A DNA stretch of 64,000 nucleotides from Streptomyces liliiviolaceus (GTDB lineage: Bacteria > Actinomycetota > Actinomycetes > Streptomycetales > Streptomycetaceae), in NCBI RefSeq assembly GCF_018070025.1, contig NZ_JAGPYQ010000001.1, positions 4,712,001 to 4,776,000 on the forward strand. The letters run 5' to 3'. Positions 4,203 through 18,333 of the stretch are shown here, piece by piece. How positions within the stretch are numbered: position 1 is the stretch's first letter; every line of letters starts with the position of its first letter. Under the pieces are notes generated by a model. It ran no database searches and was not told the origin of the DNA. It was given only the letters and a program-made list of their open reading frames with translations. Both the position numbers and the translations under genes were made by a program.

Positions 4203-4441
4203 GATGCATCACCGGTGAGGAAGAAGTGAAAGATGGCCGGAGTGATGCTTGATCCAATAGACACGGAAACTAACGCCCGCTGCTGGATACGGCCGGTAAA
4301 CGATGGTTGCTCAACGTGAATTGCCCTTCCTCCCTGGCCACAGGGGCAACACGACGAGCCCTCACATTTGATTGGCGTGAACACGATCATGGAGGGAGGA
4401 AGGTGTCGCTGAAAGAAGAACCAACTGCGAGGCACACCGCG

Positions 4442-4679
4442 TCACACAAAGGGTAAATTCGAGGTGGCAAGCAGCGGACCGATGTGGTCGATAGTCCGGT
4501 CCGCCGTCGACTTTGGAGACCCCGAACAATGGCGCCAGTTGGCGCGTCGTCAAGTTCGTGCGCCAGTAGACCGTAACCAGCAGGACAGGGTCCTCCAGCG
4601 ACAGACTCCAGGGGCGGCCGCGTTGGTGGTCCGCGGTCTGCCCTCTTTCTGACTTCGATCGTTTTTGAGCCCCCGTCAA
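4442..4679 (-). pseudogene. IS5-type transposase N-terminal remnant, frameshifted
   Basis: The reading frame from 4679 encodes the helix-turn-helix start of an IS5-like transposase (YWRTNLTTRQLAPLFGVSK). Immediately after SK one extra base breaks the frame. In the next frame the expected continuation is seen (STADRTIDHIGPLLATS), followed by a TGA at 4444-4442. No catalytic DDE region remains. It lies between the RHS gene and the polyketide operon and overlaps one arm of the hairpin at 4661-4702. This is a dead fragment of an old insertion. Confidence 0.7.
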
Positions 4680-4702
4680 TACGCTGACGGGGGCTCAAAA
4701 AC
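4661..4702. terminator. Perfect 18-bp inverted repeat, terminator of the PKS operon
   Basis: Arms 4661-4678 and 4685-4702 are perfect complements (TTTTTGAGCCCCCGTCA type) around a 6-nt loop. The hairpin starts about 20 nt after the stop of the decarboxylase gene. T-rich and A-rich ends on both sides make it a likely bidirectional rho-independent terminator. Confidence 0.8.
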
Positions 4703-4722
4703 CTGTCTGCTCGATGCAGCAA

Positions 4723-5829
4723 TCAGCTGCCCTGCAGGTCCTGCTGGAAGCGGTCGCGGATGGCTTCCGGGGTGAGGGCGTTGGTTGCCCGCGGTGGGAT
4801 CGCGCCCGTGCGCGGCAGGGTTCGCACGCTGATCAGGTGCGGCCCGGAGGCGGCCTTGGCCCTCAGGACCGCGTTGCGCAGGGCGTCTTCGTTGTCGCAG
4901 CCCTCCGCGGTGCGGTAGCCGGCTGCGAGGGCCGCGGCCGGGAACGAGGTGTTGCCCGAGGTGGTCGACTGGCCGCCGGTGGACTCGTGGATCTGGTTGT
5001 CGAGGATCACGTGGATCAGGTTGGCGGGTGCCTCGTGTCCGATCATCGACAGGGCGCCGAGGTGCATCAGCGCGGCGCCGTCGCCGTCCAGGACGACGAC
5101 GGTGCGTTCGGGGTGGGCCAGCGCGACGCCCAGGCCGAGCGACGAGGCGTGGCCCATGGAGCCCTGCATGTAGAAGTTTCCGGGGCGGTCGGCGACGGCG
5201 AAGACGTCGCGGCCGGTGAAGCCGGTGGTGGCGATGACGGATGCGTCGGGGCAGGTGTCGGTCACCACGCGGATCGCGGTGCTGCTGGCCAGGCCCGTGG
5301 GCGTCTCGGTCTCTTGGGCGGCCGCCTTGCCGATGGCTCCGCGTTCGACAAGGACGAAGGGGGCCCGCCGGTCGGCCAGGTCCTTGTCCGCGGCGTCGAG
5401 GATCTCGGTGAACCGCTCGATGCCGTCCGCGGCGTGCAGCGTGTAGTGCGGGCTGCCGACGCTGTCGAGGATGCCGTGCGTCGACGGGCCCATCACGGCG
5501 TGCTGCGGCTCGTCGCTGGCCGGGTCGGGCCAGCCGCGCAGGCTGGCGAAGGTGAGGATGGGCAGTTGGTAGGTCATCACCAGTGAGGTGAGCGGGTTGA
5601 TGAGGTTGCCCAGTCCGGAGTTCTGCAGCATGACGTAGGCGCGCTGCCCGCCCAGGGCGGCGCCTGCCGCGACCGCCAGGGCGTTGCCCTCGTTGGGGGC
5701 GGGGACGTAGCGGCCGGGCTGGGTGCTGAGGTGGGCGATGGGGCCGCCGAAGTGGGAGCAGGGCACACCGCTGGCGGTGGTGAAGCCTCGGTCGGCGAGG
5801 ATGTCGCAGAAGTCTTCAGCGGAGATCAT
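4723..5829 (-). CDS. ThDP-dependent phosphonopyruvate/sulfopyruvate decarboxylase family protein
   Basis: 368 aa, starting ATG at 5829, which overlaps the DedA stop by four bases (ATGA). The pyrimidine-binding half has GVPCSHF, the ThDP-activating Glu in APNEGNALAVAAG, and QNSGLGNLINPLTSL. The C-terminal half has the cofactor motif GDGAALMHLGALSMIG ending in LDN, followed by HESTGGQ, the signature of phosphonopyruvate decarboxylases (Ppd/AepY). Family members decarboxylate phosphonopyruvate, sulfopyruvate or, by proposal, arsonopyruvate to the acetaldehyde. No PEP mutase, phosphoglycerate-mutase-like or EPSP-synthase-like gene was recognised in this window, so the substrate is unknown. Last gene of the PKS operon, with arsO nearby, so an arsono- or phosphono-substrate is the favoured inference. 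Confidence 0.85.
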   Translation of the reverse strand: MISAEDFCDILADRGFTTASGVPCSHFGGPIAHLSTQPGRYVPAPNEGNALAVAAGAALGGQRAYVMLQNSGLGNLINPLTSLVMTYQLPILTFASLRGWPDPASDEPQHAVMGPSTHGILDSVGSPHYTLHAADGIERFTEILDAADKDLADRRAPFVLVERGAIGKAAAQETETPTGLASSTAIRVVTDTCPDASVIATTGFTGRDVFAVADRPGNFYMQGSMGHASSLGLGVALAHPERTVVVLDGDGAALMHLGALSMIGHEAPANLIHVILDNQIHESTGGQSTTSGNTSFPAAALAAGYRTAEGCDNEDALRNAVLRAKAASGPHLISVRTLPRTGAIPPRATNALTPEAIRDRFQQDLQGS

Positions 5830-6530
5830 GGGCGGGGCAGCTCCGTTTCCGTGGCGGGTGTCGCGGCGGCCTGGGGTGTGGCCGCCGGTTCGTCGGTGGA
5901 CGCTGCCTGGCGGCTGCGGCGCCTCATCTTGATGCCCTCGATGATGATCGGGATACCGGAGATCAGGACGATGCCGATGACCATGCCTTCGATGTTGTCG
6001 CGGACGAAGGCGATCTGGCCGAGGTAGTAGCCGACCAGGGTGAGGCTGACGGACCACAGGACGGCACCGATGACGTTGAACAGGAAGAACGTCCGGTAGG
6101 TCATGCGGCCGACGCCTGCGGTGATGGGGATGAAGGTGCGGAACACCGGGATGAAGCGGGCCATCACCAGGGCTTTGGGGCCGTGCTTGAGCATGAATTC
6201 CTGCGCGCGTTCGGCGCTCTCCTGCTTGAAGAAGCGGGAGTTGGGCCGCCTGAACAGTGCGGGGCCTATCTTGCGGCCGAAGGCATAGCCGAACTGGTCG
6301 CCCAGGACGGCGGCGACGGCGATGGCGAGCATGACCACCCATAGGGGCTGGTGAAGGATCTGGTCGTTGGCGACCAGGAGGCCTGCGGTGAACAGCAGTG
6401 AGTCGCCGGGCAGGAAGAAGCAGACGATCAGGCCCGACTCCGCGAAGACGGTGGCCATGATGCCCAGCAGGCCGAAGGTGGAGATGAGTTGTTCGGCATC
6501 GAGTAAGGGTGAGGCAGCGAGGTTCAGCAT
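5826..6530 (-). CDS. DedA family membrane protein
   Basis: 234 aa, start ATG at 6530, stop overlapping the decarboxylase start. The family signature is clear: ESGLIVCFFLPGDSLLFTAG, GDQFGYAFGRKIGP, and FIPVFRTFIPITAGVGRMTYRTFFLFNVIGA, with four to five hydrophobic segments and a Pro/Ala/Thr-rich tail. DedA proteins are membrane transporters, some flipping polyprenyl-phosphate or other lipids. Placement between the KAS III-like and decarboxylase genes suggests a cluster role such as export or membrane handling of the product; that is inference. A hairpin upstream at 6571-6604 may separate its transcription from the PKS and KAS III genes. Confidence 0.88.
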   Translation of the reverse strand: MLNLAASPLLDAEQLISTFGLLGIMATVFAESGLIVCFFLPGDSLLFTAGLLVANDQILHQPLWVVMLAIAVAAVLGDQFGYAFGRKIGPALFRRPNSRFFKQESAERAQEFMLKHGPKALVMARFIPVFRTFIPITAGVGRMTYRTFFLFNVIGAVLWSVSLTLVGYYLGQIAFVRDNIEGMVIGIVLISGIPIIIEGIKMRRRSRQAASTDEPAATPQAAATPATETELPRP

Positions 6531-6570
6531 GGCCGGAGGTCCCTGGGTGGTGAGGCGGGAAATGGAAGAT

Positions 6571-6604
6571 CCGGGAGCCGGCCCGTATGGGGGCCGGCTC
6601 CCGG
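6571..6604. terminator. 14-bp perfect hairpin between the KAS III-like and dedA genes
   Basis: Arms 6571-6584 and 6591-6604 (CCGGGAGCCGGCCC and complement) flank a 6-nt loop, just after the stop of the KAS III-like gene and 41 nt before the dedA start. No T-run follows, so it could attenuate, or protect the 3' end of the PKS-KASIII message, without terminating fully. Confidence 0.55.
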
Positions 6605-6613
6605 AAGCGCGGG

Positions 6614-7651
6614 CTATTGGGCCCAGTGGGGTCGGTGGTCGATGCGTACGACGGCGCAGGTGATGGAGACTCCGCCGCCGTGGGCGACGATGAGGACGTG
6701 GTCGCCTGGCCCGACCTGGCTGGTGGCGACGAGGTGGTCGAGGCCGACGATCTGGTCGTTGACCGTCAGGTGGCCGAGGTTGCGGCCGAAGTCGAGCAGT
6801 CCCAGGTCGGTTGAGAGGCCCATCGGGTCGAGGATGACCTTGAGGTAGCTCTCCTGGCCGGTGAAGACGTGGGCGACGCGGGTGACGTCCGCCGGTTCGA
6901 GGCCGGCTTCGGCCAGGGTGCGCAGGGCTATCTCGGTCCGCAGTTCGCCCTGGCGGCGTACGACTTCGGCGACGGTCTCCTCCAGACCACCGGCGGCAGC
7001 CAGACGTTCCTTGAAGTCCATGCTGCGTCCGACCGTCAACGACGGGGGGAAGAGCGGCTCGGCGCCCCGGTACTGCTCCTCGACCTCGGCGGTGGAGCCG
7101 GTGTTGATGGACAGCAGGCTGGCGAAGCCGTCGGTCTTGGACAGCAGGACGGCGCTGCCGGCGTCGCCCAGCACGCCGTTCTGGATGCCGAAGGCCCACC
7201 GGTTGAAGTTCGGGGTGCCGACGTTGTCGGCACCGGTGAGCAGGGCGGTGGTGCGCTCGGGGACGGCCTGGAGGTAGCAGGCGGCCAGTTCCAGCGAGCC
7301 GATCAGGCCGCTGCAGGCCTGCCAGACGCGGAAGGAGGGCACGTCGCGGTCGGTGATGTGGCGCAGGATGTAGTGCTGCGGCGACCAGCCTTCTGGGCCC
7401 TGCTCGTGGCCGCAGGCGTGGATGTGCATGTCGATGTCGTGCGGGTGAGTCTGGGAGCGTTCCATGGCCTGGCGGGCTGCGGCGACGGCCATGTCGGGTG
7501 CGGGCATGTCGTCGGCGACGGCCGCGCCGGTCCAGCCGTACCACTCGTAGTCGTCGGCGTCGTACAGGCCGAGTGCGACGGCCTTTTGGGCGTCGACGAT
7601 CTCGGGGATGTAGGTGCCGAGACCGGCTATGCGGATGTCTGTGGTCTTCAC
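6614..7651 (-). CDS. Ketoacyl-ACP synthase III-like acyltransferase
   Basis: 345 aa, GTG start at 7651, 29 nt after the PKS stop. Thiolase fold of the FabH family: the nucleophile Cys lies in WQACSGLIGSLELA, and the C-terminal core ends in HGGGVSITCAVVRI. The usual His is present (VAHVFTG) but not in the HQAN context of FabH. The segment that normally carries Asn (GNTSAA) reads GRNLGHLTVND, so the Asn is not conserved. Homologues with altered triads act as acyltransferases making esters or priming/offloading PKSs, not as chain-elongating enzymes. With no thioesterase in the PKS, an offloading or esterifying role is attractive but inferred. Confidence 0.85.
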   Translation of the reverse strand: MKTTDIRIAGLGTYIPEIVDAQKAVALGLYDADDYEWYGWTGAAVADDMPAPDMAVAAARQAMERSQTHPHDIDMHIHACGHEQGPEGWSPQHYILRHITDRDVPSFRVWQACSGLIGSLELAACYLQAVPERTTALLTGADNVGTPNFNRWAFGIQNGVLGDAGSAVLLSKTDGFASLLSINTGSTAEVEEQYRGAEPLFPPSLTVGRSMDFKERLAAAGGLEETVAEVVRRQGELRTEIALRTLAEAGLEPADVTRVAHVFTGQESYLKVILDPMGLSTDLGLLDFGRNLGHLTVNDQIVGLDHLVATSQVGPGDHVLIVAHGGGVSITCAVVRIDHRPHWAQ

Positions 7652-7680
7652 GGGTGGCTCGATCCTCGTCTGTCGCTCGG

Positions 7681-10600
7681 TCAGGCCGAGGCGTTGGCTG
7701 AGTTGAGTTCGGCGGTCAGCGCCTGGACGACCGTGGTGATCGTGCCGTCCTTCAACAGCTGCACCATCGGCAGCTTCACCTGGTACTCCCGCTCGATGCG
7801 GTTACGCAGCTCCACCGCCATCAGCGAATCCATACCGAGCCGGTTCAACGGTCGGCTGACGTTGAGGCGCTCCGCTCGCAGCCCCATCACGACCGCCACC
7901 GCTTCCTTCACGAAGGCCAGCACCGTGTCGTCGGTGCCGTTGACCGGTACCGCGTCGTCCTCGACCGACTGCGCCTGCAGTTCCGGCTTCGGCTGCGGAG
8001 CGGCGGTCTTCTCGGGCTGGACCGGGACCGGGGATACGGCTGCCGGTGCGGGCACACGGGGAGCTGCCGGGGCAGGCGCGGCGGGGGTTGTCGGGGCAGG
8101 CGCTGTCTCGGGCTGGGAGGCCGAGGGGTTGGCGGAGTTGAGTTCGGCGGCCAGGGCCTGGACGACCGTGGTGATCGTGCCGTCCTTCAACAGCTGCACC
8201 ATCGGCAGCTTCACCTGATATTCGCGCTGGATGCGGTTGCGCAGCTCCACCGCCATCAGCGAATCCATACCGAGCCGGTTCAACGGTCGGCTGATGTTGA
8301 GTCGCTCGGGCTTCAGACCCATCACCACGGCCACTTCCCGCTTGACCGACTCCAGCAGTTCCGTGCTCGGCGCGACAGCTGCGGGTGTCTGCCCGGTGTC
8401 GGCCGACCGGGGGGCGGGGATGCGGGCCTTCTTCGGCGTCGCCGCGGCGGGTGCGGGCTTCGACGCGGGCTTGCTCGGGGCGGGTGTCTCTACCGCGACG
8501 GGTGCGGGCACCGCCGGGGCCGGGGCTGCGATGACCGGTGCCGGGTCGGCCGGGCCGGACGCGGCCGGGCGGCTCGTGGCGGTGAGGTGCTGCAGCAGCG
8601 GCACGGTGGCCGCCGTCGGGTAGGCGCGTGCCCAGGCGGGCCAGTCGGCGCGCAGGACGGCGGTGTGCAGGCGCCCTTCGGCGAGGATGCCACCCAGGAC
8701 GGCGAAGCCGTCGTCGGGGCTGAAGGAGGACATTCCCTGGGGCAGGAGGGTGCGGTCTTCCTGCTGTTCCTTGCGGGCCACCATGCCCACGCTGTCCCAG
8801 AAGCCCCAGTTGATGACGGTGGCCGGTCGGCCGTGTGCGTCGCGGTGGTGGGCCAGGGCGTCGAGGAAGGCGTTGCCAGCCGCGTAGCCGCCGAGCATGG
8901 GCGAGCTGAGGATCGCTGAGCCGGAGGAGAAGAGTACGAACGCGTCGACTTCCTGGTCGTGCAGGAGGCGGTGCAGGTTCCAGGCTCCGGAGACCTTGGC
9001 CGCCAGGACCGTGTCGAGGTCGGCGGGGGTCATGTCGCTGAGCGGGGCGTAGTCGATGACGCCCGCCGCGTGGAAGACGCCGCGGACGGGCGGCAGGCCC
9101 TGGCGGTGGCGGCCGGTCAGCAACCCCTGCATGGCGTGGTGGTCGGCGACGTCGGCGGCCTCGTACTGCACGCTGACGCCGCGCTCGGCGAGTTCGTCGA
9201 GGACGGCGAGCGCAGCGGCGTGCGGGTGGTCGGCGGGCAGCGGGGTCCCGGTAGCGGGCAGGGGGCTGCGGCCGGTGAGCAGGAGGTGGCGGGCGCCCTG
9301 GTCGGCGAGCCACAGGGCGAGCCGGCCGCCGATACCGCCTGCTCCCCCGGTCACCAGGTAGGTGCCTTCGCCGTGGATGGCGACGGCCGGTGTACGGGCT
9401 GCCGACGGCGCGTTGACGGCGGCGTGGTGGCTGAACGACAGGACGATCTTGCCGGTGTGGCGGGACTGGGCCATGAGCCGGAACGCGTCAGCGGCCTGGT
9501 CGGCGGGGAATTCCGTGTGCGGCAGGGGCTGCAGGTCGCCGCGTTCGACCAGGGCGGCTGCGGCGCGCAGGATGCGTCCGGCACGCTCCGGCGCGTTCTG
9601 GATCATGTGGACGACGTCGACGGCATGGAAGGACAGGTTGCGGGCGAACGCGCCCAGGGGCAGCGGGTTGTCGTCGAGGATGTCGCGCTTGCTCAGTTCG
9701 AGGTAGTGCCCGTAGGGCGCCATCAGGGAGAGGTTGGCCGGGATGGCCTCGCCCGCCAGGGTGTTGAGGATGACGTCGAAGCCGTTCTCGCCGACGGCTG
9801 GGCGGAAGGTGTCGGCGAAGTCCAGGCTGCGGGAGTCGGCGACGCGGTCGACGCCGAGCTTGGCGAGGAGTTGGCGCTTGGCGTCGCTTCCGGCGGTGGC
9901 GTAGATCCGGGCGCCCTTCCAGCGGGCGACGTTAAGGGCGGCAAGTCCGGTGCCGCCGGTGGCGGAGTGGATGAGGATCTTGTCGCCGCGGTCGATACGG
10001 GCGAGGTCGTGCAGCGCGTGGTAAGCGGTCAGGTAGGAGGCGGGCAGCGTCGCGGCCTGCGCTGAGGTGAGGCGGGCCGGTTTGGGAGCGGTCAGGCAGG
10101 CCCGCGTGACGACTTCGCTGGCCAGGGAGCCGTCGGCGAAGGCGATGACCTCGTCGCCGATGGCGACGTCGGTGACGCGGCTGCCGGTCTCGGTGACGGT
10201 GCCCGCGCACTCCCAGCCGAGGGTCGGCGGCTGGTCGTCCTGTCCTGGGTACATGCCCAGGGTCAGCAGGACGTCGCGGTAGTTGACTCCGGCGTGGGCG
10301 ACCTGGATGCGGACGTCGTCGGGTCCGAGGGGCCGGTGCGCGGCGGGCTGGAGACCAAGGTCGTCCAGGACGCCGGGGGTGGGCAGTGACAGGTTCCGCG
10401 GTCCGTCGGCGGCGGCGGGGGCCGGGCGCAGGCGGGCGGCGAGACGCTGGCCGTCGCGCAGTGCCGTCTGGTCTTCCGTGTCGGGCTTCTGCAGCAGGTC
10501 GGCCAGGGCGGGGATGCTGTCCGGGGACCGGTCGAGGTCGACCAGGCGGGGGCTGAGAGCCGGGGTCTCGGCGGCGAGGGTGCGGCCCAGGCCCCACAGG

Positions 10601-13600
10601 GGTGCCTGGAAGGGGTTGCGGACCGTGTCGGCGGGGCTGGTGGACTGGGCGAGCTGGGTGATCAGCCAGAGCGGCGGGTGGCCGAGGGAGTGCTTGTCCA
10701 GGGCCCTCATCAGGTGCAGGACGCTGTGGCCGGTGAGGAGTTGGGTGCGGCCGATCTCGGTGGCGGTGGCGTCGAGGCCGACCTGCGCGTCGAGCGCCCA
10801 CAGGTGGATGACGCCGCGGCAGGTGCCCTCACGGGCGATGTCGGCCAGGGTGTCGACGTAGTGGTCGGGGTTGGCGGGGTCGAGGCGGTAGCGCTCGCCC
10901 GCTCCGGCCATACGGCCGGCCGCTGCGGTGATGGCGATGACGCGCTCGCCGCGCCAGGTCAGTTCACGGATGAGGGAACGGCCGGTGGGGCCGCTGTCGG
11001 TCAGCACCAGCCAGAAGCCGTCCGGCTGCCGGGCGGTGGCCGAACCCTGGTGCGGGGCGGCTTCCCAGGTGAGGGTGTGCAGCCAGGACTCCTGTCCGAC
11101 GGAGGCGAGTACGGGCGGGACGGCTTCGGTGGCGGTCACAGTGGTGTCCTCGTGGTGCGGTGTCAGCGGTGCGGGGGCGTGGCCGGCCAGGTATTGCAGG
11201 CGCAGGCCGCGCATCTGGGCCAGCAGCCCGCCGTCGTCGTCGCGGATGTCGATGTCGGCGCTGAAGGAGTCTTCGCGGGGGGCGGGCAGCAGGCGGGCGT
11301 GGCTGTGCATGGAGGCGGTCGGCCGGCCGAAGAAGCGGACTTCGTCGATGCCTCCGAGGACGAAGACGCCTTCCTCGCCGGGGGCGGTCAGCGGCCGGGC
11401 GGCGGCCATGGAGTGGCCGCTGGCGTCGAGAAGGGCGGGGTGGAAGTGGTGCTGTTCCAGGCCCTCGCGCAGCTCGGCGGGGCAGATCAGGTGGGCGAGG
11501 ACTTCCCCGTCGGTACGCCACAGTTCGGCCACGCCCTGGAAGGCGCCGTTCCACTGGTTGCCGCGTGCGGCGTTCCAGGGGTAGAAGTCGGCGGCGTCCT
11601 GGTGCTCGCCGCACCGGCCGCGGATGGCGTCCAGGGGTTCGGCTCCGGCCGCGGCCTGCGCGGTGAGGTGGCGGGCGGTGGCCTCGGTGTGCAGCGTCCA
11701 GTCGACGCTGTCGGTGTCGGCGTCCCGGCTGTAGATGGAGCAGTGCAGGCTGCCGTCGGCGGCGGGGGTGGCGACGACGACCCGTACCTGGGGCGGCGGT
11801 GCGGACTCTTCCAGGAACAGGGCACGGTGGTAGTGCACGTCGGCCAGTGACAGCGCGCCGTCGCCGAGCACGATGCGCGAGGCTGCGCCGACGAGTTCGA
11901 GGTGGGCGGTGCCGGGCAGGATGATCGTGTCCTGGATGCGGTGGTCCCGCAGATAGGCGTTGCGCGTCAGGTCCAGGGGACCCTGCCAGATCCGGGTGGT
12001 GCCCTCGCCTGCGAGCTCCGTGCCCAGCAGCGGATGCGATGCGGCGGCAGCGGTCGAAGGGCGCGGAGTCGCCGCGTCGGCCAGGGTAGGAGCGGACGGT
12101 TCGGCAGCGTTGGGGGCGGGGTCGATCCAGTGCCGGGTGCGCTGCCACGGGTAGGTCGGCAGGGGCACGTAGGAGCCGGGTCCCGTCAGGGCGTCGAAGG
12201 TGAGCGGCACGCCCGCGGTGTGCAGCAGGGCGGCGAAGGTGAGCAGGCAGCCGCGTTCGTCGTCCTGGCGGCGCAGGCTGCCGACGGCCGTCACTTCCTG
12301 GCCGTCCGCGCGTCCGGTCTCCCGGATGCCGTTGACCAGCAGGGGGTGTGGGCTGACTTCGATGAATACGGTGTCGCCGAGGGCGAGTTGCCCGCGGACG
12401 GCGCCGACGAAGTCGACGGGCTGGCGGATGTTGCGTACCCAGTAGTCGGCGTTCATGGCCGACCCGTCGATGACTTCGTTGAGCAGGGTGGAGTGCAGCG
12501 GGATGGTGCCCGGCCCGGGGGTCAGGTGTGCCAGTTCGGCCAGGAGGTCGTCGCGCAGGGCGTCCATCTGCGGGCAGTGGGAGGCGAAGTCCACGTTGAC
12601 ACGGCGGTTGGCGACCTCGCGGGTGTCGAGGTCGGCCAGCACCTTGGCGAGGGCGTCTCCGTCACCGGACAGCAGGGTGGAGGTGGGGCTGTTGATCGCC
12701 GCGACGGCGACCTTGTCCTCGTAGCCGGCCAGCGCGCGGGCGGCATCCTCGGCGGGCAGCCCGACCCAAGCCATGGTGCCGCGTCCGGAGAGCCTCTTGG
12801 CGAGGCGGCTGCGGCGGCAGATGACGGCGGCGGCATCGGTGAGGCTGAGGGATCCGGCGATGTAGGCCGCGGCGGACTCGCCCATGCTGTGGCCGATGAC
12901 CACGTCGGGCTCGACGCCCCAGGAACGCCACAGCTGGGCGAGGGCGATCTCCATGGCCCACAGGGTGGGCTGGATGACGTCGAGTTCCTTGAAGCGGCCC
13001 TCGTCACCGAAGCGCAGGAGGTCGATGACCGACCAGCCGGTCTCGGTGCGGATGGCGGCGTCGCACTCCCACATCACGTCGTGGAAGACGGGCTCGGTGT
13101 TGAGGAGTTGGCGTCCCATGCCGACCCACTGCGAGCCCTGCCCGGGGAAGACGAACGCGATCCTGGGCGGGCTGGTGGGGTCGGTGTAGTCGCTGTAGGA
13201 CAGGCCGGGTTCGTCCTGCCCGTCGGCGAAGGCGCGCAGGGCGTCGGCTGCTTCGCTGTGATTGTCGACGGGGACGGCCAGGCGTGCGTCGTGCAGGGTG
13301 CGGCGCAGTGCTGCGGAGTGGCTGATGTCGCGCAGGCTCTGGGCGGCTCCGTCGCCGGTGAGGTGGTCCGCCATGCGGCGGGCGGCGTCGACGAGGGCCT
13401 CGGGGCTCAGTGCGGACAGAGTCAGCAGTTCGGTGCGAGCCGGCTCCTGGTCGTGCGGGGCTTCGGTCTGGGGTACGGGGGCTGCTTCGAGGACCAGGTG
13501 GGCGTTGGTTCCGGAGAAGCCGAAGCTGCTGACCGCGGCGACGTGCGGGCGGTCTCGGTCGGGCAGCGCGGTGGCCTGCGTGGGGATCTGCAGCGGCAGT

Positions 13601-14796
13601 TCGTCCCAGGCCACGGCCGGGTTGGGGTTGTTCAGGTGCAGGTTGGGCGGCACGGTGCCGTGTTCCAGGCACAGGATTGCCTTGATGAGTCCGGCGATGC
13701 CGGCGGCGGCCTCGGCGTGACCGATGTTGGTCTTGATGGAGCCGACCAGGCAGCGCTCGTCGCCGGCGCGGGGGCCGATCACGTCGGCGAGGGCCTGCAG
13801 CTCTACAGGGTCGCCGACGCTGGTGCCGGTGCCGTGGGCCTCGATGTAGTCGACGTCGGCGGGGTCGATGCCGGCGTTGGCGTAGGCGCGTACGAGCACG
13901 TCGCGCTGGCCTTCGACGGCGGGGGTGACGAGGTAGCCGGAGCTCTGGCCGTCGTTGCCGATGGCGGAGCCGCGGATGACGGCGCGGATGCGGTCGCCGT
14001 CGGCGAGGGCAGCCTTCAGCGGCTTGAGGATGACGGCGCCGATGCCGTCGCTGCGGACGAATCCGTCACCGGAGGCGTCGCCGAACTTGCAGCGTCCGTC
14101 GCTGGCGAGCATCCCCGCGCCGGAGTAGACGACGCCTTCTTCCGGGAGCAGGACGATGTTCACGCCACCGGCGATCGCCAGGTGGCATTCGCCCAGGCGC
14201 AGGGCCTGTACGGCGTTGTGCACGGCGACCAGGGCGGAGGAGCAGGCGGTGTCGACGGTGAAGCTGGGTCCGCGCAGGTCGAAGGCGTAGGACAGGCGGC
14301 CGGAGGTGATGGCGCGGGAGGCGGCGCCGGTCATCGCGTACAGGTCGAGTTGGTCACGCCGGTCGTACTGCAAGTGCCAGTAGTCGCCGCCGAGTTGTCC
14401 GATGAAGACTCCCGCGTCGGAGCCCGCGAGGCGGGCGGCGGACTGTCCGGCGTCTTCGAGTGCTTCGTAGGCGGTTTCCAGCAGCAGCCGCTGCTGGGGG
14501 TCCATGCGGTCGGCCTCGCGGGGAGAGACTCCGAAGAACTCCGCGTCGAAGGCGTCGATGTCACGCAGGAGGCCGCCCCACCGGCTGACGGTGCGCCCGG
14601 GCGTACGGGGGGCGGGATCGTAGACCGCGTCGATGTCGTAGCGCTCTGAGGGTATTTCGGTGATGGCGTCGCGGCCCTCCAGGAGCATCTTCCACAGTTC
14701 CTGAGGGCTGGTGGCGTCGGCGAACCGGCCGGCCATGCCGATGATGGCGATCGGTTCGCTGACAGGGTCTGCGGCAGGTGTGGGGTCGTGCGGCAT
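7681..14796 (-). CDS. Highly reducing type I polyketide synthase, KS-AT-DH-ER-KR-ACP-ACP
   Basis: 2371 aa, ATG at 14796 preceded by GGAAGGA. Domains: KS about 13-437 (Cys185 in DTACSSA, His321 in HGTGT, His360 in NIGHAEAAAG); AT about 545-830 (GHSMGE, Ser637; FASH at 737-740, closer to methylmalonyl-type YASH than malonyl-type HAFH); DH about 920-1205 (His952, Asp1124; the Gly of HxxxGxxxxP is Asp); ER about 1470-1790 (GVNYRDVL, SATGGTG); KR about 1811-2060 (GTYLVTGGAGGIGG, Ser1958, Tyr1971, Asn1975); then two near-identical ACPs with GMDSL (Ser2179, Ser2324). No thioesterase and no docking tail, so it probably works iteratively on a reduced, possibly methyl-branched chain. An Ala/Pro-rich linker joins the ACPs. 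First gene of the operon. Confidence 0.95.
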   Translation of the reverse strand: MPHDPTPAADPVSEPIAIIGMAGRFADATSPQELWKMLLEGRDAITEIPSERYDIDAVYDPAPRTPGRTVSRWGGLLRDIDAFDAEFFGVSPREADRMDPQQRLLLETAYEALEDAGQSAARLAGSDAGVFIGQLGGDYWHLQYDRRDQLDLYAMTGAASRAITSGRLSYAFDLRGPSFTVDTACSSALVAVHNAVQALRLGECHLAIAGGVNIVLLPEEGVVYSGAGMLASDGRCKFGDASGDGFVRSDGIGAVILKPLKAALADGDRIRAVIRGSAIGNDGQSSGYLVTPAVEGQRDVLVRAYANAGIDPADVDYIEAHGTGTSVGDPVELQALADVIGPRAGDERCLVGSIKTNIGHAEAAAGIAGLIKAILCLEHGTVPPNLHLNNPNPAVAWDELPLQIPTQATALPDRDRPHVAAVSSFGFSGTNAHLVLEAAPVPQTEAPHDQEPARTELLTLSALSPEALVDAARRMADHLTGDGAAQSLRDISHSAALRRTLHDARLAVPVDNHSEAADALRAFADGQDEPGLSYSDYTDPTSPPRIAFVFPGQGSQWVGMGRQLLNTEPVFHDVMWECDAAIRTETGWSVIDLLRFGDEGRFKELDVIQPTLWAMEIALAQLWRSWGVEPDVVIGHSMGESAAAYIAGSLSLTDAAAVICRRSRLAKRLSGRGTMAWVGLPAEDAARALAGYEDKVAVAAINSPTSTLLSGDGDALAKVLADLDTREVANRRVNVDFASHCPQMDALRDDLLAELAHLTPGPGTIPLHSTLLNEVIDGSAMNADYWVRNIRQPVDFVGAVRGQLALGDTVFIEVSPHPLLVNGIRETGRADGQEVTAVGSLRRQDDERGCLLTFAALLHTAGVPLTFDALTGPGSYVPLPTYPWQRTRHWIDPAPNAAEPSAPTLADAATPRPSTAAAASHPLLGTELAGEGTTRIWQGPLDLTRNAYLRDHRIQDTIILPGTAHLELVGAASRIVLGDGALSLADVHYHRALFLEESAPPPQVRVVVATPAADGSLHCSIYSRDADTDSVDWTLHTEATARHLTAQAAAGAEPLDAIRGRCGEHQDAADFYPWNAARGNQWNGAFQGVAELWRTDGEVLAHLICPAELREGLEQHHFHPALLDASGHSMAAARPLTAPGEEGVFVLGGIDEVRFFGRPTASMHSHARLLPAPREDSFSADIDIRDDDGGLLAQMRGLRLQYLAGHAPAPLTPHHEDTTVTATEAVPPVLASVGQESWLHTLTWEAAPHQGSATARQPDGFWLVLTDSGPTGRSLIRELTWRGERVIAITAAAGRMAGAGERYRLDPANPDHYVDTLADIAREGTCRGVIHLWALDAQVGLDATATEIGRTQLLTGHSVLHLMRALDKHSLGHPPLWLITQLAQSTSPADTVRNPFQAPLWGLGRTLAAETPALSPRLVDLDRSPDSIPALADLLQKPDTEDQTALRDGQRLAARLRPAPAAADGPRNLSLPTPGVLDDLGLQPAAHRPLGPDDVRIQVAHAGVNYRDVLLTLGMYPGQDDQPPTLGWECAGTVTETGSRVTDVAIGDEVIAFADGSLASEVVTRACLTAPKPARLTSAQAATLPASYLTAYHALHDLARIDRGDKILIHSATGGTGLAALNVARWKGARIYATAGSDAKRQLLAKLGVDRVADSRSLDFADTFRPAVGENGFDVILNTLAGEAIPANLSLMAPYGHYLELSKRDILDDNPLPLGAFARNLSFHAVDVVHMIQNAPERAGRILRAAAALVERGDLQPLPHTEFPADQAADAFRLMAQSRHTGKIVLSFSHHAAVNAPSAARTPAVAIHGEGTYLVTGGAGGIGGRLALWLADQGARHLLLTGRSPLPATGTPLPADHPHAAALAVLDELAERGVSVQYEAADVADHHAMQGLLTGRHRQGLPPVRGVFHAAGVIDYAPLSDMTPADLDTVLAAKVSGAWNLHRLLHDQEVDAFVLFSSGSAILSSPMLGGYAAGNAFLDALAHHRDAHGRPATVINWGFWDSVGMVARKEQQEDRTLLPQGMSSFSPDDGFAVLGGILAEGRLHTAVLRADWPAWARAYPTAATVPLLQHLTATSRPAASGPADPAPVIAAPAPAVPAPVAVETPAPSKPASKPAPAAATPKKARIPAPRSADTGQTPAAVAPSTELLESVKREVAVVMGLKPERLNISRPLNRLGMDSLMAVELRNRIQREYQVKLPMVQLLKDGTITTVVQALAAELNSANPSASQPETAPAPTTPAAPAPAAPRVPAPAAVSPVPVQPEKTAAPQPKPELQAQSVEDDAVPVNGTDDTVLAFVKEAVAVVMGLRAERLNVSRPLNRLGMDSLMAVELRNRIEREYQVKLPMVQLLKDGTITTVVQALTAELNSANASA
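7684..7900. repeat. Direct repeat copy 1, C-terminal ACP coding sequence
   Basis: This block is nearly identical at the nucleotide level to 8119-8335, at a fixed offset of 435 bases, and encodes the second ACP. Long identical runs cover the stretch around the phosphopantetheine serine. The high identity points to a recent duplication or ongoing gene conversion. Confidence 0.85.
8119..8335. repeat. Direct repeat copy 2, first ACP coding sequence
   Basis: Partner of 7684-7900; it encodes the first of the tandem ACPs. The copies differ mainly at third codon positions and at a few surface residues. Confidence 0.85.
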
Positions 14797-15136
14797 GGGT
14801 GTCCTTCCGGGCATGGCGAAGCCGTTCACTGGAACGCAGCACGTGTGAGACCCATTGCGTGCACGCGGCGAGCTGACGGCAGTGCCGGCTCGGTGGCGGG
14901 CGTGCACGCGAATGGTGTTCGAAGGTGGCGGGAGAGTCGGCTCCGTCTACGAGGACGGTGGCGCGGCGCATGGCGAGTGCGTCGTGCGGTCGATGAGCCG
15001 TGGCGGCTTGTCGGCGAAGCCACCGGTCTTCCAACGTTGTTGCGGCACAGGGCAGTTGCCCGTTGCCGAACGCCCCCGTTGTTTCGACATGTATCGAGAT
15101 TGGCTTGTGAAAGCATACTTCGCAACGCGCGACTCG

Positions 15137-15150
15137 GTGACGCTAGTCAC
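15137..15150. promoter_or_regulatory. Palindrome GTGAC-N4-GTCAC
   Basis: Perfect 5-bp inverted repeat with 4-nt spacer, 25 bp before the TTGACA box, in the divergent PKS/arsO control region. Size and symmetry fit a dimeric regulator site; the regulator is unknown. Confidence 0.4.
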
Positions 15151-15185
15151 ACGCCGTAGATCTCTGGGTTCAGGTTGACATCCAT

Positions 15186-15217
15186 CGAATCAGGAAAGAT
15201 CCTGGAGTCTTGATTCG
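15186..15217. promoter_or_regulatory. Long-spaced inverted repeat CGAATCA-N18-TGATTCG, candidate ArsR-type operator
   Basis: Perfect 7-bp arms at 15186-15192 and 15211-15217, directly downstream of the TTGACA box at 15175. The AT-rich half-sites around ATCA/TGAT resemble ArsR operators. An ArsR repressor is encoded 2.7 kb away. Confidence 0.45.
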
Positions 15218-15316
15218 TCATTTGTCTATATAGGCGTCGGTGATCAACCCGCCGCGACAGCGGCGAACGGGCCGCCGCCAACGCCACGCAGAGACCCTCG
15301 ACAGGAGTCGATCTCG

Positions 15317-15511
15317 TTGAGCGAACAGACCACCAGCTCGGGCCCGGGCCAGACCGGTCAGAACGCCGGGGCCGAGACCGGCGGCGCCTGCTGTGCGGGC
15401 ATCGCCGATCTGCGTCGGCGAGCCGAACAGGCCGCAGCACTCCGCGCCGAGCAGACCGCTTCCGGCGCGGACGGCACCACACCGTCTCCCGCACCCTCCG
15501 GCGCCGCGTGA
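15317..15511 (+). CDS. Small Cys-Cys protein preceding arsO
   Basis: 64 aa, TTG start at 15317 with AGGAG at 15303-15307. Ser/Gly/Gln-rich N-terminus, a vicinal Cys25-Cys26 pair (GGACCAG), then a short amphipathic Arg/Ala/Glu helix (ADLRRRAEQAA) and an Ala/Pro-rich end. It lies 45 nt upstream of arsO and is probably co-transcribed. I do not recognise the family. Vicinal Cys pairs bind As(III) well, so an arsenic-binding or carrier role is possible; a precursor peptide is an alternative. Coding status rests on the ribosome site, codon bias and position. Confidence 0.6.
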   Translation: MSEQTTSSGPGQTGQNAGAETGGACCAGIADLRRRAEQAAALRAEQTASGADGTTPSPAPSGAA

Positions 15512-15556
15512 TGCCGCCGACCGCCTTAGTCCCCGCGTCTGAAAGGACACGACACC

Positions 15557-17020
15557 GTGGTTGACCACAGCCTCGACCAGTTCCCCGTCGCCGTGATCGG
15601 AGCGGGCCCGATCGGCCTGGCCGCCGCCGCGCACCTGGCCGAACGCAACGTCCCCTTCGTAGTGCTGGAAGCCGGAGACACCGCGGCGGCAGCAGTACGG
15701 TCCTGGTCCAACGTCCAGCTGTTCAGCCCCTGGGAATACAACACCGACCCGGCCGCCCGGCGCCTGCTGGCCGAGGCCGGCTGGCAGGAGCCGGACGCCT
15801 CGGAGCTGCCGACCGGCGGAGACCTGGTCAAGCAGTACCTGCAGCCGCTGGCCGAACTGCCCGCCCTGGCCCCGCACATCCGCTACGGCGCGACCGTCAC
15901 CGCTCTGAGCCGGCTGGGCATCGACCGGCTGCGCACCGCCGGCCGCGAGCAGGCTCCCTTCGTCGTCCGCCTCGCCGACGGCGAGGAACTGCTGGCCCGT
16001 ACGGTCATCGACGCCTCCGGCACCTGGCGCCAGCCCAACGCCGTCGGCGCCAACGGACTGCCCGCCCACGGCGAGCAGGACGCGGCCGCGTGGATCACCC
16101 ACGGACTGCCCGACGTGTTCGGCGCGGACCGCGATCAGCACGCCGGGCACCACACCGTCGTCGTCGGCGCCGGGCACTCGGCGGCCAACACCCTGCTGGC
16201 TCTGGCCGAGTTGGCGGACGCGGCGCCGGGTACCTCCATCACCTGGGCCATCCGCAGCGCCGATCCGTCCGCCTCGTTCGGCGGCGGCAGCGACGACGAG
16301 CTGCCCGCGCGCGGCGCGCTCGGTTCGGGACTGAAGATGCTGGTGGACACCGGCCGCGTCACCCTGGCGGCGAACTTCCGCACCCACAGCATCCGCCGCA
16401 CGGGCGACAACCAGGTCGAGCTGATCTCCACCCAGGGCGGCGAACAGAGCATCACGGCCGACCGGATCGTGGCAGCCACCGGCTTCCGCCCGGACTACGG
16501 CATCAGCGACGAACTGCGCCTGGAACTGGACCCGATCATGTCCGCGCCCCGTGCGCTGGCCCCGCTGATCGACCCCAACCAGCACTCCTGCGGCACCGTC
16601 ACCCCGCACGGCTACCGCGAACTGGCCCACCCCGAGCCGGGCTACTACATCGTCGGCATGAAGAGCTACGGCCGCGCCCCCACCTTCCTCATGCTCACAG
16701 GCTACGAGCAGGTGCGTTCCATCGCCGCGGCACTGGCGGGAGACCTGGAGTCCGCCCAGTCGGTGGAACTGCAGCTGCCGGAGACCGGGGTGTGCTCGGT
16801 GACGGCCGGCGGCGAGGCGATCGCCCTGCGGCTGGGCCTGAGCAAGGAAGAGCACGAGCAGCTCCTGCACGTCACCGCCAAGTACCTGGGCACCTCGGCC
16901 ACCGCGGCGGACGCGGTCCTGTCCGCGGCCACCGAACTCGGCATCGATCACACCGCAGCACTCCAGCTGGCGGCCTACGCCGCCGACCAGTTCGACGCGC
17001 CCGGCGCCACCGGCTGCTGA
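15557..17020 (+). CDS. arsO: ArsO-type flavin-dependent monooxygenase
   Basis: 487 aa, GTG start at 15557 with GAAAGGA ten bases upstream. FAD-binding Rossmann motif VIGAGPIGLAAA at the N-terminus, a second nucleotide site VVVGAGHSAANTL near residue 198, and ATGFRPD near residue 308, the layout of class B-like flavoprotein monooxygenases. The overall pattern (SWSNVQLFSPWEYN, MKSYGRAPTFLM) matches the ArsO proteins of Streptomyces arsenic clusters; symbol assigned from recognition, not from a search. Such enzymes are thought to oxidise arsenic species or products. It diverges from the PKS operon and converges on an SDR gene with a strong terminator between. Confidence 0.82.
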   Translation: MVDHSLDQFPVAVIGAGPIGLAAAAHLAERNVPFVVLEAGDTAAAAVRSWSNVQLFSPWEYNTDPAARRLLAEAGWQEPDASELPTGGDLVKQYLQPLAELPALAPHIRYGATVTALSRLGIDRLRTAGREQAPFVVRLADGEELLARTVIDASGTWRQPNAVGANGLPAHGEQDAAAWITHGLPDVFGADRDQHAGHHTVVVGAGHSAANTLLALAELADAAPGTSITWAIRSADPSASFGGGSDDELPARGALGSGLKMLVDTGRVTLAANFRTHSIRRTGDNQVELISTQGGEQSITADRIVAATGFRPDYGISDELRLELDPIMSAPRALAPLIDPNQHSCGTVTPHGYRELAHPEPGYYIVGMKSYGRAPTFLMLTGYEQVRSIAAALAGDLESAQSVELQLPETGVCSVTAGGEAIALRLGLSKEEHEQLLHVTAKYLGTSATAADAVLSAATELGIDHTAALQLAAYAADQFDAPGATGC

Positions 17021-17027
17021 CAGCACG

Positions 17028-17085
17028 CCCCGGGGCCGTCTGCTCCCTCACGCCAACAAGCGCGAAGGAACAGACGGCCCCGGGG
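17028..17085. terminator. 15-bp perfect hairpin between arsO and the SDR gene
   Basis: Arms 17028-17042 and 17071-17085 (CCCCGGGGCCGTCTG and complement) with a 28-nt loop, in the 89-nt gap between convergent genes; probably a bidirectional terminator. Confidence 0.7.
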
Positions 17086-17109
17086 CCGTTCGCCAGGAGA
17101 CGCGACCCG

Positions 17110-17877
17110 TCAGGAGACGCGGTGCACCTTGTGCTGGGCCGCCTGCGCCCGCGGGCGCACCACCAGCAGGTCTATGTTGACGTGCGAGGGCCGGGTCACC
17201 GCAAAGGCCACCACATCGGCGACGTCCCCGGCGACCAGCGGGAAGGGCACCCCCGCATAGACGGCATCGGCCTTCTCGCTGCTGCCGCGGTAGCGGTTGC
17301 GGGAGAACTCCTCGGTGTGCACCATGCCGGGTGCGATCTCAATGACCCGCAACGGCTGACCGCACGCCTCCAGGCGCAGTGTCTCCGCCAGCACGTGGGC
17401 TCCGTGCTTGGCGGCGCTGTAACCGCCGCCGCCCTCGTAATTGGTGAAGGAGGCGGTGGAGGTCAGCACGACGACCACGCCGTCGCCGCTGGCGACCAGC
17501 AGGGGCAGCAGCGACTGGGTCATGTGGAGAGCGCCGACGACGTTCACGTCGTACATGCGCTGCCAGTCGGCCGGATCGGCCTGGGCGATCTCCTCGGTCC
17601 CGTACGCGCCGCCCGCGATGTTGACCAGCACGTCGCAGGATTCGAGCTGTCCGGCGAACGCGGTCACGGCCTCGCGGTCGGTCACGTCGAGCGGATGGAC
17701 CTTCGCCGTCCCGCCGTCGGAGTGCACCTGCTTGGCAACGGCTTCCAGCCGGTCCGCTCTGCGCGCCGTGAGCACCACGGTGTAGCCCTGGCGGGCCAGT
17801 TCCCGCGCGGTGGCCGCGCCGATGCCGCTGCTTGCTCCGGTGATCACAGCCGTACGCGACTGAGTGGGCTCTGCCAT
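17110..17877 (-). CDS. Short-chain dehydrogenase/reductase
   Basis: 255 aa, ATG at 17877 with GGGGGA upstream. Classical SDR: TGASSGIG cofactor motif, NIAGGAYG, catalytic Ser in LTSTASF and YSAAK, then PGMVHTEEF. NADP preference is suggested by the Arg residues after the first beta-alpha unit (TARRADRL). It faces arsR across a short control region with two palindromes. A reductase for an aldehyde made by the nearby decarboxylase is possible but unproven. Confidence 0.88.
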   Translation of the reverse strand: MAEPTQSRTAVITGASSGIGAATARELARQGYTVVLTARRADRLEAVAKQVHSDGGTAKVHPLDVTDREAVTAFAGQLESCDVLVNIAGGAYGTEEIAQADPADWQRMYDVNVVGALHMTQSLLPLLVASGDGVVVVLTSTASFTNYEGGGGYSAAKHGAHVLAETLRLEACGQPLRVIEIAPGMVHTEEFSRNRYRGSSEKADAVYAGVPFPLVAGDVADVVAFAVTRPSHVNIDLLVVRPRAQAAQHKVHRVS

Positions 17878-17900
17878 CAAACGGTCCCCCACACCCTTGA

Positions 17901-17916
17901 TTAGACGGTTATCTAA
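17901..17916. promoter_or_regulatory. Palindrome TTAGA-N6-TCTAA upstream of the SDR gene
   Basis: Perfect 5-bp arms, 24 to 39 bp before the SDR start codon. The TAGAC/ATCTA symmetry looks like a TetR- or MarR-type operator; no such regulator is adjacent. Confidence 0.45.
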
Positions 17917-17936
17917 ACAGGTGATCTTGGCATCCT

Positions 17937-17953
17937 GTTGAACGAGTGTCAAC
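17937..17953. promoter_or_regulatory. ArsR operator candidate GTTGA-N7-TCAAC
   Basis: Perfect 5-bp arms, 8 nt before the arsR ATG at 17962. Half-sites TTGA/TCAA are typical of ArsR family operators, so this is probably the autoregulatory site; it would block translation start or promoter clearance. Confidence 0.5.
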
Positions 17954-17961
17954 ATAGACGC

Positions 17962-18333
17962 ATGTCGAAGCTTCAGGAGAAGGTGGCCGCGCTCCCGGCC
18001 GAGCGGTGCTGCCCAGCCCTGACCGAGAGGGAACTCACGGCGGAAGAGGCCGAACTCACCGCCGCCATGTTCAAAGCCCTGGGCGACCCGGTGCGGCTGC
18101 GCCTGTTCTCCAAGGTGGCTTCGCACCCGGACAGTGAGGCCTGCGTCTGCGACATCGCCGACGTCGGCGTCTCGCAGCCGACCGTCTCCCACCACCTGAA
18201 GAAGCTCAAGGAGGCAGGCCTGCTGACCTCCGAGCGGCGCGGAACGTGGGTCTACTACCGGGTCGAGCCGTCGGTGCTGGCCGCCATGGGGCATCTGCTG
18301 ACGCCGACGCCTGCGTCCGCCCAGGTGGCCTGA
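17962..18333 (+). CDS. ArsR family arsenic-responsive repressor
   Basis: 123 aa, ATG at 17962; an upstream in-frame TTG at 17938 lies inside the operator palindrome and is less likely. Winged helix with the ArsR metal motif ACVCDIADVG (Cys61, Cys63) followed by the recognition helix SQPTVSHHLKKL. A second pair, Cys16-Cys17 (ERCCPAL), sits in the N-terminal arm. It probably senses As(III)/Sb(III) and controls the SDR, itself and perhaps arsO and the PKS operon. Confidence 0.88.
   Translation: MSKLQEKVAALPAERCCPALTERELTAEEAELTAAMFKALGDPVRLRLFSKVASHPDSEACVCDIADVGVSQPTVSHHLKKLKEAGLLTSERRGTWVYYRVEPSVLAAMGHLLTPTPASAQVA

Follow-up and report, generated by a model that had tools for sequence, protein, structure and literature searches.

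A predicted bisenarsan-type organoarsenical gene cluster in Streptomyces liliiviolaceus, with candidate enzymes for aldehyde reduction and ester formation

Gene content of the locus

We analysed a stretch of 64,000 nucleotides of the Streptomyces liliiviolaceus genome (the window; G000:C1:4712001-4776000 of 11.13 Mb), which carries a polyketide synthase (PKS) operon beside arsenic genes. Judging from gene content and order, these genes in all likelihood belong to an organoarsenical cluster of the bisenarsan (bsn) type, of which the window covers one half and the DNA just before it the other.

Four genes on the minus strand form a single operon (window 4723-14796). They encode a Ppd-type decarboxylase dependent on thiamine pyrophosphate, a BsnJ homologue and predicted arsonopyruvate decarboxylase located near BsnN (4723-5829; TIGR03297, 342 bits with a cut-off of 312.5); a DedA/VTT membrane protein (5826-6530; PF09335, 2.6e-24), whose stop codon overlaps the ATG of the decarboxylase gene (ATGA); a KASIII-like acyltransferase, the predicted ester-forming or release enzyme (6614-7651); and a single-module PKS homologous to BsnPKS (7681-14796, the start being our choice). 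The operon diverges from the genes for a 64-residue Cys-Cys peptide (15317-15511, plus strand) and an ArsO-like flavoprotein monooxygenase (15557-17020, plus; PF13738, 2.6e-17). A short-chain dehydrogenase/reductase (SDR), the predicted arsonoacetaldehyde reductase (17110-17877, minus), and an ArsR/SmtB regulator (17962-18333, plus; NF033788, 91 bits with a cut-off of 55) follow. The regulator has an N-terminal CC and a CVCD motif, a cysteine pattern that we take to resemble the As(III) site of Corynebacterium ArsR. An initial annotation of the window had listed the PKS operon, peptide, flavoprotein, SDR and ArsR, and all are present as described. It had called the flavoprotein ArsO-type: the protein is ArsO-like, but its NF040505 score of 50 bits is far below the cut-off of 425.

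The remaining half and the gene order of the cluster

In the known pathway, BsnM, BsnN and BsnJ are required for bisenarsan, and 2-hydroxyethylarsonate rescues all three mutants (PMC12159101, section 8). The initial annotation regarded the bond-forming enzymes as missing, yet homologues of BsnM and BsnN are encoded 8-11 kb before the window start. The genome contains six matches to EPSP synthase (EPSPS), the best of which (C1:4702293-4703513) lies 8.4 kb before the window. It corresponds to BsnM (C1:4702257-4703579; TIGR01356, 415 bits), which overlaps by 4 bp with the gene for the phosphoglycerate mutase homologue (iPGM) BsnN (C1:4700728-4702260; TIGR01307, 424 bits). Towards the window, the series runs: Pst-type ABC genes, a small gene, BsnN, BsnM, a molybdopterin oxidoreductase (MoOx), a CTP-synthase-like glutamine amidotransferase (GAT1), the MFS transporter gene, ArsR and an RHS-repeat gene. 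The island continues past the Pst genes with a further pair of ArsR genes, a second ArsO-like gene and a gene for an ArsI/CadI protein (203 bits with a cut-off of 116); it has four ArsR-like genes altogether. The locus thereby combines an EPSPS homologue and an adjacent phosphoglycerate mutase homologue with a Ppd homologue and a PKS with an adjacent KASIII-like gene. The cluster is whole but stretched, and the apparent gap arose because the window edge cut it. The cluster genes scanned included no S-adenosylmethionine (SAM)-dependent C-As enzyme, although no search aimed at one was made.

An alignment of 22 KASIII sequences was used to scan for related clusters, yielding 33 loci in named genomes; the set includes no record named S. 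lividans or S. coelicolor. The nearest named relative is S. dioscori, with a KASIII 99% identical over the best segment. The order PKS-KASIII-DedA-Ppd-MFS-GAT1-MoOx-BsnM-BsnN occurs in 12 of the 33 loci (L015-L024, L028, L036) and is the commonest found. Since this order is common to named actinomycete loci, the arrangement is not due to chance. Counting the small gene beside MFS, which is an ArsR wherever it was read, the ten genes from PKS to BsnN fit SCO6827 to SCO6818 of S. coelicolor. According to PMC7324645, sco6818 is a phosphoglycerate mutase, sco6819 an EPSPS and sco6826-6827 a polyketide pathway, and PMC5839063 describes SCO6824-6827 as a cluster resembling polyketide synthesis. The gene order, described initially as a variant, is thus the commonest one found, and the BsnM and BsnN homologues together with the shared order support the proposal of a bisenarsan-like organoarsenical cluster. 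By synteny, the decarboxylase and PKS do not fall far from arsenic clusters, which is where the initial annotation would have expected them had it been wrong. The position of DedA is conserved as well; the gene is not in the examined stretch of L029, L030, L032 and L034, nor in G089.

It is possible, on balance doubtful, that the same pathway carries a different acyl chain or acceptor here, giving a congener and not bisenarsan. In the 12 full-order loci, identity to the PKS (62-77%) is below that to the KASIII (87-92%), and diversity around bsnMN has been noted by a review (PMC12159101). Against this, the partner genes and their order match those of the commonest cluster, and the PKSs of close relatives are 97-98% identical.

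The linear Streptomyces plasmid NZ_CP109189.1 (L086) carries bsnMN homologues together with Pst, arsenate reductase, arsenite efflux, ArsO, thioredoxin and molybdopterin oxidoreductase genes. The location of these bsnMN homologues on a plasmid suggests transfer. Elsewhere in the S. liliiviolaceus genome, another of the EPSPS homologues lies close to what, by eye, is a second KASIII-like gene (L013:9343-12162), in an apparently unrelated biosynthetic region.

Two operator-like sites at divergent promoters

Two conserved operator-like sites are predicted to mark the divergent promoters of the cluster. The first is an ArsR-type candidate between the PKS and the Cys-Cys peptide (15174-15189, minus strand), an exact match to TTCGATGNNTGTCAAC. 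At one mismatch or fewer, this pattern has four sites in the genome, three of them in the island, and none for the reversed control; it was drawn after the PKS and second ArsO-like promoters had been seen, so that the island matches are partly by construction and only the rarity elsewhere is independent. Besides the window site, two matches (C1:4695359, C1:4695443) fall in the gap separating the second ArsO-like gene from its adjoining ArsR, and one lies elsewhere. With three mismatches allowed, the window alone gives 8 matches where 2.68 would be expected, a count attained in 2 of 100 shuffles; six of the 8 are outside the cluster. An alignment of the PKS/Cys-Cys peptide promoters from 13 clusters is centred on a TATATAG element and a ATGTCAAC half-site, the latter present in all 13. 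The predicted site in the PKS promoter supports control of the ArsR type, in keeping with the arsenic control proposed initially.

The MFS/GAT1 divergent promoter contains an exact TATCAACAG-N6-CTGTTGATA, the sole place in the genome at up to three mismatches, but the reversed control also gives one. The exact motif is found in 7 of 13 named relatives examined and is missing in the other 6; the inner arms are present in G109 and G068. This second candidate is favoured because of the exact match and its conservation in relatives, not because of the count.

A stretch with an RHS gene separates the two halves

The two halves are separated by a 6.6-kb stretch (L011:13065-19650) that ends at window position 4650. 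Its right-hand part (window 1-4650; RHS_repeat and HTH_Tnp_4 by Pfam) lies outside the pathway. The stretch contains an RHS/YD-repeat gene encoding 1711 residues and a transposase-HTH remnant, and by blastn it stands where the close relative G109 has about 0.7 kb. It sits between convergent genes and separates Ppd from the bsnMN half. S. dioscori (L031) has other genes in its place. The gap that holds the stretch may be an insertion hotspot.

The RHS stretch, absent from G109, could have uncoupled or silenced the cluster in this strain, leaving a relic. We regard this as quite improbable: the genes on the two sides of the stretch converge, those cluster genes with a match in G109 have open reading frames and are 95-100% identical to their counterparts, and both divergent promoters retain their operator-like sites.

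The decarboxylase is linked to BsnN and not to PEP mutase

Ppd-type decarboxylases are associated with phosphorus as well as arsenic chemistry, and the initial annotation had proposed an acyl or ester derivative of an arsono- or phosphono-C2 unit. We surveyed 121 genomes of the genus, the window's own (G000) and 120 drawn evenly. Ppd matches under the TIGR03297 cut-off, including split or broken ones, were left out of the count. Over-cut-off Ppds occur in 13 of the genomes and BsnN (E<=1e-100) in 12. Six of the Ppds (G000, G047, G050, G068, G089, G109) lie 7.6-14.5 kb from BsnN, with no TIGR02320 (phosphoenolpyruvate (PEP) mutase) nearby among the matches listed. The other seven (G003, G006, G014, G029, G030, G042, G048) each have a TIGR02320 match no more than 1 kb away, two of these matches being over the cut-off, four at 290-313 bits and one (G003) at 170 bits. 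BsnN was not found in the seven genomes with a PEP-mutase-linked Ppd, so the groups do not overlap. The G095 Ppd, excluded as below the cut-off (241.6 bits, one in-frame stop), adjoins a PEP-mutase match, and BsnN is encoded on a different contig of that genome.

In this cluster Ppd very probably acts on arsonopyruvate, because the split between the Ppds is clean and G000 has at best a weak match to the specific PEP-mutase model. A phosphonate cluster, in which phosphonopyruvate would be the substrate of Ppd and 2-hydroxyethylphosphonate would be acylated by the PKS, is extremely improbable. TIGR03297 is named for phosphonopyruvate decarboxylase, more than half of the over-cut-off Ppds (7/13) adjoin a PEP-mutase match, and the broad family PF13714 has two over-cut-off matches in G000 (C1:7257721 and C2:1564960, on contig 2) plus a weak third, none of them in the cluster. 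But PF13714 is also over the cut-off in 9 of 14 control genomes and hence unspecific, the best TIGR02320 match anywhere in G000 has an E-value of 2.6e-4, and arsenic genes and regulators stand on both flanks. With only this weak TIGR02320 match in the genome and with Ppd linked to BsnN, the phosphonate reading was rejected; the arsono part of the initial proposal is retained and the phosphono part disfavoured. Whether Ppd neighbours BsnN or PEP mutase may serve as a simple criterion for distinguishing arsonopyruvate from phosphonopyruvate decarboxylases in genome sequences.

PKS and KASIII as candidates for acid synthesis and ester formation

The PKS shows the Pfam order KS-AT-DH-ER-KR-ACP-ACP, ending in a pair of ACPs; a thioesterase is not among the 18 Pfam families listed. 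Its AT motifs, GHSMG and FASH, fit methylmalonyl extension.

BsnPKS and BsnFB are reported to make 2,4,6-trimethyl-2-nonenoic acid, and alcohol attack on the ACP-bound acid is the proposed mode of release (PMC12159101, section 8). The KASIII gene is probably the BsnFB of that review. Its product matches ChlB3 (7eqi) with 281 bits, DpsC with 172, CerJ with 138 and the best FabH with only 32. None of the 22 aligned sequences departs from C113, H294 and D299, residues that align with C113, H296 and D301 of ChlB3; PMC9573744 gives the ChlB3 triad as Cys113-His296-Asp301 and describes CerJ as transferring malonyl onto a sugar hydroxyl. The KASIII-like protein is likely the ester-forming enzyme.

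A KASIII at least 60% identical is present in 23 of the 33 named loci. Twenty of these have Ppd; 18 of the 20 contain BsnM or BsnN, while L025 and L031 come from genomes with BsnN. The remaining three loci (L033, L035, L041; KASIII 61-69%) have the PKS-KASIII pair but lack Ppd, and their genomes gave no BsnN at E<=1e-60; their pairs may esterify other acceptors. These three are what could be said for a generic PKS merely neighbouring an arsenic resistance operon, the least credible of the alternatives, since 20 of the 23 pairs come with Ppd and BsnM/BsnN and the PKS promoter shares its operator-like site with ars genes.

An SDR as candidate arsonoacetaldehyde reductase

The reductase acting on the aldehyde is placed by the same review either within the cluster or outside it as an orphan (PMC12159101, section 8). 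The nearest solved structures to the cluster SDR, almost over its full length, are YMR226C (148 bits), clavaldehyde dehydrogenase, two further SDRs and sulfoacetaldehyde reductase (6ixj, 120 bits). The best NCBIfam match is 3-hydroxypropionate dehydrogenase YdfG, at 154 bits below the cut-off of 411.

We scored 22 candidates per genome in the 121 genomes (E<=1e-60). An SDR match is present in 119, mostly at 61-70% identity, and eight genomes have two copies. They comprise G025, G046 and the six genomes with Ppd and BsnN; in each of the six, one copy is about 11 kb away from Ppd. The second, cluster-borne copy accordingly occurs in 6/6 genomes with Ppd and BsnN, in none of six with BsnN and no over-cut-off Ppd, and in none of seven with a PEP-mutase-linked Ppd. 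The first two counts give a one-sided probability of 1/924, uncorrected for kinship. In G089 the SDR lies between BsnM and GAT1 on one strand, and in L032 it directly precedes the PKS, with 10 bp between them. Under an 80% rule, ten positions (e.g. 144, 154, 194, 196, 248) consistently separate 11 cluster copies from 14 others, the comparison excluding the three extra copies of G025 and G046.

The co-occurrence with Ppd and BsnN and the kinship to sulfoacetaldehyde reductase and YdfG make this SDR the likely arsonoacetaldehyde reductase left open by the 2025 review (PMC12159101). A search with arsonoacetaldehyde and related words gave no further paper on the pathway among the matches listed.

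Beside Ppd, L029 (12253-14035) and L030 (12372-14037) carry flavin-reductase-like and luciferase-like monooxygenase genes, identified by eye.

Accessory genes

MoOx (L011:6623-9037) is found at E<=1e-150 in 7 of the 121 genomes, every one with BsnN. None of its scores for the 25 NCBIfam families listed reaches the cut-off; formate dehydrogenase alpha comes first (316 of 666 bits), with ArrA at 155 of 1600 and AioA at 73 of 359, and comparison with the PDB gives 129 bits for ArrA and 25.7 for AioA. Assignment as an AioA-type arsenite oxidase by homology was rejected on these scores. A role in arsenite oxidation would rest on its co-occurrence with BsnN only. GAT1 (L011:9252-9887) is present in 19 of the 20 named Ppd loci and has no obvious role.

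The Cys-Cys peptide starts with TTG and has no Pfam match; a CCAAIA-like core is followed by a basic, helix-like stretch. A similar reading frame is found in 9 of 13 related loci examined, and the peptide is a candidate arsenic-binding peptide. A search of plasmids for the flavoprotein gave only generic names among the matches listed.

A proposed route and points against it

The genes suggest the following route. Arsenate would be taken up by the Pst-type ABC genes. According to the S. lividans scheme (PMC12159101), BsnM would form arsenoenolpyruvate, BsnN would convert it to arsonopyruvate, making the C-As bond, and Ppd would yield arsonoacetaldehyde. The SDR would then reduce this to 2-hydroxyethylarsonate. 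The iterative PKS would assemble a methyl-branched C9 acid on its ACP, and the KASIII, via Cys113, would pass the acid to 2-hydroxyethylarsonate at its hydroxyl group and so release an ester, for example bisenarsan. ArsR proteins would repress the divergent promoters, through the predicted operators, until arsenic is present.

Several observations weigh against this reading of the locus. Among the 20 Ppd loci, 12 have an SDR and four (L018, L020, L021, L025) end before its expected place; L026, L029, L030 and L034 have none in the examined stretch, so the SDR is perhaps not universal. A universal cluster SDR was rejected because of these four loci, which have Ppd and BsnN. The common SDR paralogue, present in 119/121 genomes, could perform the same reduction, and a single group of bsn SDRs has weak support (77/65; 78% of bootstrap trees). 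GAT1, MoOx and DedA have no assigned role in the scheme. The likeness to the type bsn cluster itself rests on gene order and papers.

Taken further, the cluster could form a self-contained line in which the SDR reduces arsonoacetaldehyde, the KASIII forms the ester and MoOx oxidises arsenite to arsenate for BsnM, so that a start from arsenite would be possible; as a whole we consider this speculative and unlikely.

SAM-independent formation of C-As bonds is a recent discovery. Our analysis offers one named candidate each for two steps that are vague in the review (PMC12159101), the SDR for aldehyde reduction and the KASIII for ester release, proposed because of gene co-occurrence and active-site comparison.

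Comparison with known systems

The bsn cluster of S. lividans 1326 and S. coelicolor also contains EPSPS, phosphoglycerate mutase, Ppd, a PKS with its partner and arsenic regulators. It differs from the S. liliiviolaceus cluster in that here 6.6 kb with an RHS gene lie between Ppd and the bsnMN half.

The cluster SDR resembles the sulfoacetaldehyde reductase (6ixj), YdfG and YMR226C enzymes at 120-148 bits. PMC6616044 names isethionate as the product of sulfoacetaldehyde reductase; isethionate is the sulfur analogue of 2-hydroxyethylarsonate. In contrast to these enzymes, the closest relative of the cluster SDR is the paralogue common in the genus. Like the ChlB3 and CerJ acyltransferases, the KASIII has a Cys-His-Asp triad, but the acceptors would differ: an ACP for ChlB3, a sugar for CerJ and, by prediction, the hydroxyl of 2-hydroxyethylarsonate for the cluster enzyme.

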